A stretch of DNA of 47,705 nucleotides from Pirellula sp. (GTDB lineage: Bacteria > Planctomycetota > Planctomycetia > Pirellulales > Pirellulaceae): contig JAIPFP010000013.1 of NCBI GenBank assembly GCA_021736575.1, positions 1 to 47,705 of the forward strand, read 5' to 3'. Within the stretch, counting starts at the first letter, position 1, and each line of letters begins with the position of its first letter. Both the position numbers and the translations under genes were made by a program. The notes beneath the pieces were generated by a model, which was not told where the DNA came from, did no database searches, and saw only the letters and a list, made by a program, of their open reading frames with translations. Below, one piece after another: positions 37,685-39,124 of this stretch.

Positions 37685-37929
37685 GGGAGTTCTAGCAGCG
37701 AACCGTTGGCTCCGATGGGGCAAGCCCATCGGGGGCCAAAACTCCTTTCTACCAACCTCGTCCGACTCTGCCTGCTCGTCCGACTCTGCCGGTTCGTCCG
37801 ACGTCGCCGGTTCGGCCGCACGCCCCCAGTCGGCTGGTCCGACTGGAGCGTACGGTTTGCAAGCTAGCCCATCTCGCTACCGACAAAGGCTCCCAGACGG
37901 GCTTGTCCCGTCTGAAGCCAAAGGTTCTT
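37685..37929. repeat. hairpin array A: three CTKGY-loop hairpins plus 18-bp tandem repeat
   Basis: Hairpins at 37712-37732, 37826-37846, 37894-37914; 18-bp repeats 37757-37810; closely matches array B. Confidence 0.92.
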
Positions 37930-37935
37930 CGATGC

Positions 37936-38733
37936 CTAACTCCTGACTGAGTTCATGTTATAGATTCCCGTAGTACCAATGTAATAGCTCGGACGCCACA
38001 ATCCCACAGCCTTCAATCTTCGGCAAATATCATTCATGTAGAAGATCGCAATGGCTTCCGGCGAATCCTCAACGTTGCCACCACCAACGCTTAAGTGAAG
38101 GTGATCAGGCATAACAGAGATGCTCGCGAGCCGATCGCTTCGATCCAGTGCGATTGCTTGGCAAGCTTCAAATAGAGCTGCCAGAAACTGCAAGTCGCGA
38201 ATGCGATGACGCCTATCGACAACGAGGACCAAATGCAAGTGATACCAATACCGACCGCTGGCGACTTCGATTGGCAAGTTCCATTCGTTACCGTCCGTCC
38301 AAATACTGGTAAATTGCTTAAGCGCTTCGGCGAAACGAACATCGACGAATCCTGCTGCCTCAACTTGATTTCCGATATAGGCCTGAACGTCTGCAATGGC
38401 GTTATCGCCAATAGCGCGAAGCGATACCTTTCGAGAGAACTTGAAGGGGACTCCACGGGAACGAAAAAAGTGGTCGATGCGTCCCTTGATTCGGGCAACG
38501 ATAAAGGAAGGAAACGCATGAGGTTTTGAACTGACGGTAACCTGCCATTGATGTTGTTCGCACTTGCGCTCCAACAATCGGATTCCATCTTTCTCCCACG
38601 CTTGCGATAGAACTTGCCAGTCAGCGTTGGACATCGTGGGCATGAAACCTTGTGATGGCCATCCGGTCCAGGACCACCGCAACGCATAGGCGGGAGTTGT
38701 TGTTTCAGGCGAATAGCAATCCGTGTTGGACAT
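37936..38733 (-). mobile_element. IS200/IS605-like Y1 (HUH) transposase, apparently two fused TnpA-like domains
   Basis: 265 aa; YHLHLVLVVDRRHRIRD...LASISVMPDHLHLSVGGG...LWRPSYYIGTTG resembles TnpA; residues 51-123 resemble a second TnpA (GIRLLERKCEQHQWQVTVSSKP...FIVARIKGRIDHFFR...VQAYIGNQ). Confidence 0.82.
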
Positions 38734-38825
38734 CTTGAACGTCCGCGATAGAGGATGGTGGATGGTTTACTGAATTGTATCGCGGAGTTTGGAAAGTTTG
38801 GAAGCTGGTGGAACCTAATTCACCG

Positions 38826-38842
38826 CGCGACGCAAGGTCGCG
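38826..38842. repeat. hairpin CGCGAC-GCAAG-GTCGCG (same loop class)
   Basis: Perfect 6-bp stem; GCAAG is the reverse complement of CTTGC. Confidence 0.75.
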
Positions 38843-38868
38843 GGGGTCTTTTGGTTATAGGTTTCGGG

Positions 38869-39124
38869 GAGTTCTAGCTGCGAACCGCTGGCTCCGATGG
38901 GGCAAGCCCATCGGGGGCCAACACTCCAGTCTACCAAACCAATCTCGTCCGACTCTGCCTGCTCGTCCGACTCTGCCTGCTCGTCCGACTCTGCCTGCTC
39001 GTCCGACCTCGCCGGTTCGGCCGCACGCCCCCAGTTGGCTTGTCCAACTGGAGCGAACGATTCGCAAGCTAGCCCATATCTATACGTTCAAAGGCTCCCA
39101 GACGGGCTTGTCCCGTCTGAAGCC
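38869..39124. repeat. hairpin array B: three CTKGY-loop hairpins plus 18-bp tandem repeat
   Basis: Hairpins at 38894-38914, 39031-39051, 39099-39119; four 18-bp repeats 38944-39015. Confidence 0.92.

Follow-up and report, generated by a model that had tools for sequence, protein, structure and literature searches.

In IS608, the active site of the transposase is built in trans, with the catalytic Tyr supplied by one monomer and the HUH motif by the other (PMC5934647), and Q131 acts as a metal ligand (PMC6006769). The E. coli TnpAREP appears as a monomer (PMC6006769). Recognition of a hairpin loop is known for IS608, ISDra2 and some TnpAREP proteins: the IS608 and ISDra2 enzymes read a loop base together with an unpaired stem base, and one Marinomonas TnpAREP depends on the paired T..A in a TTTA loop, so loop reading of the kind proposed below has precedent (PMC8266576). 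A published census of TnpAY1 proteins retained solely those in which a single complete standard core holds both HUH and Tyr (PMC6006769), and fused proteins would therefore tend to be left out.

The stretch of DNA analyzed here (the window; 47,705 nucleotides) is one contig of a Pirellula sp. genome of 6.2 Mb in 353 contigs, the close relatives of which are metagenome assemblies labelled Pirellula. At 37936-38733, on the minus strand, it carries a Y1-type gene with hairpin arrays on both sides. With a probability of roughly 0.8, we read gene and arrays together as a REPtron-like element, in which a Y1 enzyme and the hairpin repeats cognate to it form a family of their own in Planctomycetota, the enzyme being fused and its active site composite. 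The preliminary description of this DNA missed the fused double Y1 protein and its predicted composite site. The gene and its parts are located as follows:

37936..38733, minus strand: tandem Y1 transposase-like protein P0001, 265 aa, Pfam Y1_Tnp in two stretches
38284..38712, minus strand: domain 1 (residues 8-150), Y1 fold with the catalytic Tyr/Gln helix kept and HUH lost
38377..38379, minus strand: codon of Y119, predicted nucleophile, invariant in 51/51 homologs
38365..38367, minus strand: codon of Q123, predicted metal ligand equivalent to IS608 Q131, invariant in 51/51 homologs
38095..38103, minus strand: codons of H211-L212-H213, HUH motif of domain 2, both His invariant in 51/51 homologs
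37567..37672, minus strand: truncated 3' remnant of the transposase gene, 95% identity

Judged by its sequence, P0001 is composed of two tandem Y1 domains with reciprocal motif loss. Domain 1, whose profile matches IS200 TnpA structures, has lost HUH, with the position of the second His usually occupied by Gln. Domain 2 carries D-H-x-H, and in the window's protein the C-terminus falls one residue short of the expected Tyr. The homologs are mostly intact, and the reciprocal domain decay is fixed in all of them (n = 51). Relative to single-domain Y1 proteins, the family profile matches in swapped order, the HUH half aligning with domain 2 and the Tyr half with domain 1 (for example, model positions 153-222 and 67-123, respectively, for L154). 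The protein neither holds both motifs in one domain of ~150 aa with HUH before Tyr nor combines a Y---NP motif with a single Y1 domain; the Tyr domain precedes the HUH domain, and the motif reads Y119---Q123. NCBIfam scores for P0001 stay below the cut-offs, at 41 bits versus 55 for IS200 and 17 versus 80 for REP_Tyr_transpos. The AF2 model of the full protein (pLDDT 93.8, pTM 0.90) has ISDra2 TnpA as its nearest solved fold, well above TnpAREP 4er8, and domain 1 folded alone finds IS200/IS605-type TnpA structures as its top 29 matches. Y119, Q123, H211 and H213 are predicted to be the counterparts of the nucleophile, the third metal ligand and the pair of metal-binding His residues of IS608. 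The reciprocal loss and the model with its pTM of 0.90 together imply a putative active site shared by the two Y1 domains of one chain.

In the scenario suggested by conservation and homology, two IS200-like Y1 domains would have fused in tandem and decayed reciprocally. Domain 1 would contribute the nucleophile Y119 and the metal ligand Q123, domain 2 the metal-binding H211 and H213, and the folded chain would amount to a pseudo-dimer within itself, its single active site composed from both domains. The domain 2 residue Y258, conserved in 47/51 homologs, might serve as nucleophile instead, and enzymes of the IS200/IS605 group are dimeric (PMC6006769). Either the two-domain chains could thus pair as a homodimer with inter-chain sites, or domain 2 could act alone via Y258, leaving a mainly structural role for the Y119 domain. 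We consider such arrangements unlikely, as Y119 and Q123 are invariant and show the canonical Y---Q spacing of the IS200 catalytic helix, whereas Y258 lies eight residues before the expected Tyr (G109 + 10 = Y119; G256 + 10 = 266) and is not followed by a Q four residues later.

As to the repeats, the six hairpins reported earlier in arrays A and B are all present, each perfect with an 8-bp stem and a 5-nt loop, and no other perfect hairpins of these dimensions occur in the 47.7 kb window. Together with the minisatellites of both arrays, they are:

37706..37739, minus strand: array A REP 1, hairpin 37712-37732, upper stem CCGATGGG, loop CTTGC, lower stem TTGGC/GCCAA
37757..37818, plus strand: 18-bp minisatellite CTCGTCCGACTCTGCCTG within array A
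37820..37851, plus strand: array A REP 2, hairpin 37826-37846, upper stem CCAGTCGG, loop CTGGT, lower stem ACGC/GCGT
37888..37919, plus strand: array A REP 3, hairpin 37894-37914, upper stem CAGACGGG, loop CTTGT, lower stem GGCT/AGCC
38889..38920, minus strand: array B REP 1, hairpin 38894-38914, upper stem CCGATGGG, loop CTTGC
38944..39023, plus strand: 18-bp minisatellite within array B
39026..39055, plus strand: array B REP 2, hairpin 39031-39051, upper stem CCAGTTGG/CCAACTGG, loop CTTGT
39093..39124, plus strand: array B REP 3, hairpin 39099-39119, upper stem CAGACGGG, loop CTTGT

The two arrays repeat each other in direct orientation, with 90-91% identity across two matched blocks, and the copy number of the minisatellite varies among close relatives. 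The 95% identical 3' remnant at 37567..37672, which also occurs in the relatives L081 and L085, suggests that the gene-plus-array unit was once tandemly duplicated. Besides this remnant, the window's genome contains one full-length copy of the transposase gene, which lies in conserved synteny, and one 29%-identical paralog; no discrete multicopy element with LE/RE ends was found in this genome, and no ends could be defined. An empty-site comparison with two genomes of the same genus (G010 and G074) recovered the neighboring GDPD gene, while the other flank was not syntenic. Elsewhere in the window, a perfect 11-bp palindrome (CGTTCCCAGGC-TCT-GCCTGGGAACG) at 33956-33980 recurs in the genome (L048), and GGCACAY-GGA/TCC-RTGTGCC hairpins at 43167-43236 and 44443-44459 surround a fasciclin-domain gene (43332-44276). 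The Beta-CASP metallo-beta-lactamase protein at 35050-36468 strongly resembles, at scores below the cut-offs, the models of type VII CRISPR Cas14 and archaeal aCPSF1.

The compensatory C-G to T-A change proposed for the middle hairpin proved to be real. In the close relatives L081 and L085, the middle hairpin of both arrays reads CCAGTCGG...CCGACTGG, so the CCAGTTGG...CCAACTGG of the window's array B is derived, with both sides changed. Since both orthologs have CTTGT in the corresponding loop, the CTGGT of array A is a private T-to-G change. The preliminary description had taken the loop to be always CTKGY; near-constancy holds, but a G at position 3 occurs only once and privately, and this loop class was dropped in favor of the rule found across 53 loci, C-YY-G(Y) or T-YY-A(Y). 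Apart from that private mutation, the CTKGY loops form a subset of the new rule.

Homologs of the gene are present in 16 of 100 same-family genomes, and in a sample of the phylum 5 of 294 genomes, one of them that of the window, gave a match. Scanning of 84,980 genomes of named species yielded 29 loci, most of which are titled planctomycete. The loci titled otherwise ('Candidatus Kuenenia' twice; 'Candidatus Erginobacter', 'PVC group' and 'uncultured bacterium' once each) are metagenome bins, their taxon names being given as titled. One homologous locus belongs to Rhodopirellula solitaria CA85, a non-metagenome strain with repeats. In the hairpin arrays around homologous genes, stems differ by locus and the loop is constant. 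Among perfect hairpins with a stem of at least 7, a loop of 4 or 5 and any loop sequence, collected within 1 kb of 53 genes, 228 of 246 have a C-YY-G(Y) or T-YY-A(Y) loop, while Markov resamples contain 0.85 fitting hairpins on average and three at most, an enrichment in line with the earlier reading. An earlier count gave 191 fitting hairpins near the gene versus two across 114 kb of more remote flanking DNA. Of the 53 loci, 43 have one or more fitting hairpins no further than 1 kb from the gene; the other 10 have no perfect one within this distance, and about four of them show imperfect ones. Mixed loops (C..A or T..G) are limited to two cases, each over 750 bp away from the gene and on an unrelated stem, so that positions 1 and 4 of the loop appear to change together, like a closing pair. 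Besides this probable pair, the loop would consist of a turn of two pyrimidines and, optionally, an unpaired pyrimidine on the 3' side. With 40 distinct stems and essentially two loop types, loops vary less freely than stems, as had been expected; that stems diversify around a fixed loop is nonetheless too strong in its second half, as in certain clades the C..G of positions 1 and 4 has been jointly replaced by T..A. Most hairpins upstream of the gene share its orientation, and most of those downstream are inverted (144 of 194).

The full element is larger than the 21-nt hairpin. It comprises a lower stem of 3-4 bp, a 2x1 internal loop with two 5' bases (mostly CC) opposite one 3' base (mostly A), the 8-bp stem and a loosely conserved 3' tail, roughly A-GC-n-GNTT-n-AGCTA. 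DNA folding gives the same structure (z about -5). Upper-stem covariation was not used, since it is circular on hairpins chosen for pairing; the case for covariation rests on the lower stem, which played no part in the selection, and on the orthologs. The lower stem (the next three bases) is fully paired in 52% of 118 distinct elements versus 9% (maximum 17%) for permuted partners, and this covariation stands out solely at the 2/1 offset, a level reached by 0 of 500 permutations. A gene-less array on contig C265 of the window's genome matches array A at 97% identity in the hairpins and 38% in the spacers. A GT[AG]G motif is not found 5' of the hairpins, where the flank mostly ends in CC and sometimes in CA or GA.

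Stem sharing between pairs of loci follows protein identity: 100% of pairs at 90% identity or more, 88% at 60-90%, 5% at 45-60%, 2% at 35-45%, 1% at 25-35% and 0% below 25%. Loci from 60% identity upward have a stem in common in nearly every case and loci below 60% in hardly any, and the loop rule stays constant while stems change. Each enzyme has its own cognate repeat family. As in a REPtron, palindromic repeats flank the Y1 gene and are also dispersed in the genome. The pattern CCNNNNGGCTYGYCCNNNNGG has 30 matches in the window's genome versus two for the reversed control. Gene-carrying genomes total 323 matches versus 57 for the control, and gene-less genomes, with G003, G041 and G042 left out, 181 versus 232; over all 100 genomes, exceptions included, matches are associated with gene presence (Mann-Whitney p about 6e-6). 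Copies thus track the gene, and the broader claim that structure and loop identity are under selection, as for recognition by a Y1 enzyme, is supported, with nothing found that refutes it and with one caveat. Co-occurrence is incomplete: the highest copy numbers are those of G003 (122 versus 1 in the control) and G041 (353 versus 2), two fragmented assemblies in which no tandem Y1 gene is detectable at E 0.001. Their repeats have a CTYGY loop and the same architecture as the gene-linked ones; they may be orphans after gene loss or, equally, the gene may be absent from the fragmented assembly.

In the window's genome (G000), the same loop also occurs with several additional stem families. Same-loop arrays with other stems, e.g., CGACGGGG, CCGTCCGG and CCGGTCGG/CCGGTTGG, are located on contigs C19, C165, C208, C255, C282, C89; C60, C150, C13, C104; and C134, several of them at contig ends. 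About ten single dispersed copies of CGTTCGGG-CTYGY-CCCGACGG, in which full pairing requires a T to be bulged out, occur on C76, C113, C133, C140, C142, C173, C192, C213, C256 and C279.

A single Y1-type gene with hairpins on both sides, a Y---Q motif and an IS200-like fold could also denote a decayed IS200/IS605 insertion sequence, whose hairpins would be ordinary LE/RE ends. This is very improbable, as each side bears many hairpins, built on several stems and mostly inverted about the gene, repeat copies disperse without the gene, the one full-length gene copy is syntenic, and homologs are mostly intact with the reciprocal decay fixed in all. The hairpins might instead be transcription terminators, or structures of another kind with no relation to the enzyme, adjacent by chance or by shared repeat expansion. 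This would suit intergenic GC-rich hairpins that abound without the gene in two genomes, but was dropped as highly improbable, because no T-tract follows the hairpins, neither the loop rule nor the internal loop is typical of terminators, and the arrays are tied to the gene (a fitting hairpin within 1 kb in 43/53 loci) with stems that track the protein.

Under the REPtron-like reading, the enzyme would bind the repeat as a folded single strand and recognize both the 2x1 internal loop and the mini-loop, the latter with its closed C-G or T-A pair, two-pyrimidine turn and 3' pyrimidine bulged out. It might cleave and rejoin in the flank, plausibly near GNTT-n-AGCTA, a guess from tail conservation, which would spread and rearrange REP copies while the stem sequence drifts freely as long as pairing is kept. 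We favor, with less assurance, the more specific proposal that a single-chain Y1 HUH enzyme arose by duplication and decay, independently of monomeric TnpAREP, and drives a REP family that is read by its closed mini-loop (C-YY-G-Y / T-YY-A-Y) and not by a GTAG guide. If true, the tandem Y1 family reached one active site by a different route, fusion plus decay, and offers a natural experiment on why IS200/IS605 dimers have two shared sites and REP-processing enzymes need one. Repeats with free stems and a fixed loop would provide a clean test system for folded single-strand recognition, and would account for abundant hairpin repeats in planctomycete genomes. In the open-access literature, we found no description of the fused Y1 enzyme or of these planctomycete repeats, subscription papers lying mostly outside the search; this type of selfish-repeat system appears to be undescribed so far, and its novelty is provisional.

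With IS200/IS605 TnpA (IS608, ISDra2; TnpAY1 subclass 1.1), the window's enzyme shares the Y1 fold, the Y---Q helix and HUH. Tyr and HUH are likewise split between two domains (PMC5934647), as predicted here, and hairpin substrates with a recognized loop base and a stem irregularity (PMC8266576) have their presumed equivalent in the repeats. IS200/IS605 enzymes are, however, two chains with two active sites, whereas the window's enzyme is one chain with one predicted site, and IS200/IS605 elements are bounded by LE/RE, whereas no such element was seen here and the hairpins are multicopy REPs. Plain membership of IS200 TnpA was rejected, since fold, Y---Q and HUH agree but the motifs lie on different domains of one chain. 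The TnpAREP/RAYT REPtrons (class 2, e.g., of E. coli) are similar in that a single gene is flanked by dispersed hairpin arrays, with repeats that are cognate per enzyme and often inverted. Class 2 TnpAREPs are single-domain proteins with Y---NP and, if accompanied by REPs, a GT[AG]G foot (PMC6006769), while the window's protein has two domains, Y---Q and no GTAG foot, and its NCBIfam RAYT score is 17 versus a cut-off of 80; class 2 was rejected on motif (Y---NP) and foot (GTAG). In the E. coli REP, the loop has no sequence specificity (PMC8266576), in contrast to the loop rule found here. The Marinomonas REPtron Mb (group 3 TnpAREP) has a TTTA loop with T12/A15 as a pair (PMC8266576), resembling the T-YY-A class, but combines a GTAG-carrying REP with a class 2 TnpAREP. 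TnpAY1 class 3 (Planctomycetes, Acidobacteria) shares the occurrence in Planctomycetes and atypical high-copy flanking hairpins (PMC6006769). Its proteins, however, have 178 aa, one core domain, Y----Q, NHVH and a CnGA foot, compared with 265 aa, two domains and Y---Q in the window's protein and mostly DHxH and a mostly CC foot in its family, so class 3 failed on motif (Y----Q), length (~178 aa) and foot (CnGA). TnpAY1 subclass 1.2 has the Y---Q--HH seen in domain 1 of many homologs (YVAxQxxHH), yet consists of single-domain proteins of 148 aa with their own HUH and no REPs, from Cyanobacteria and Bacteroidetes (PMC6006769). In sum, the system is REPtron-like in its presumed workings, with a protein of the IS200 type.
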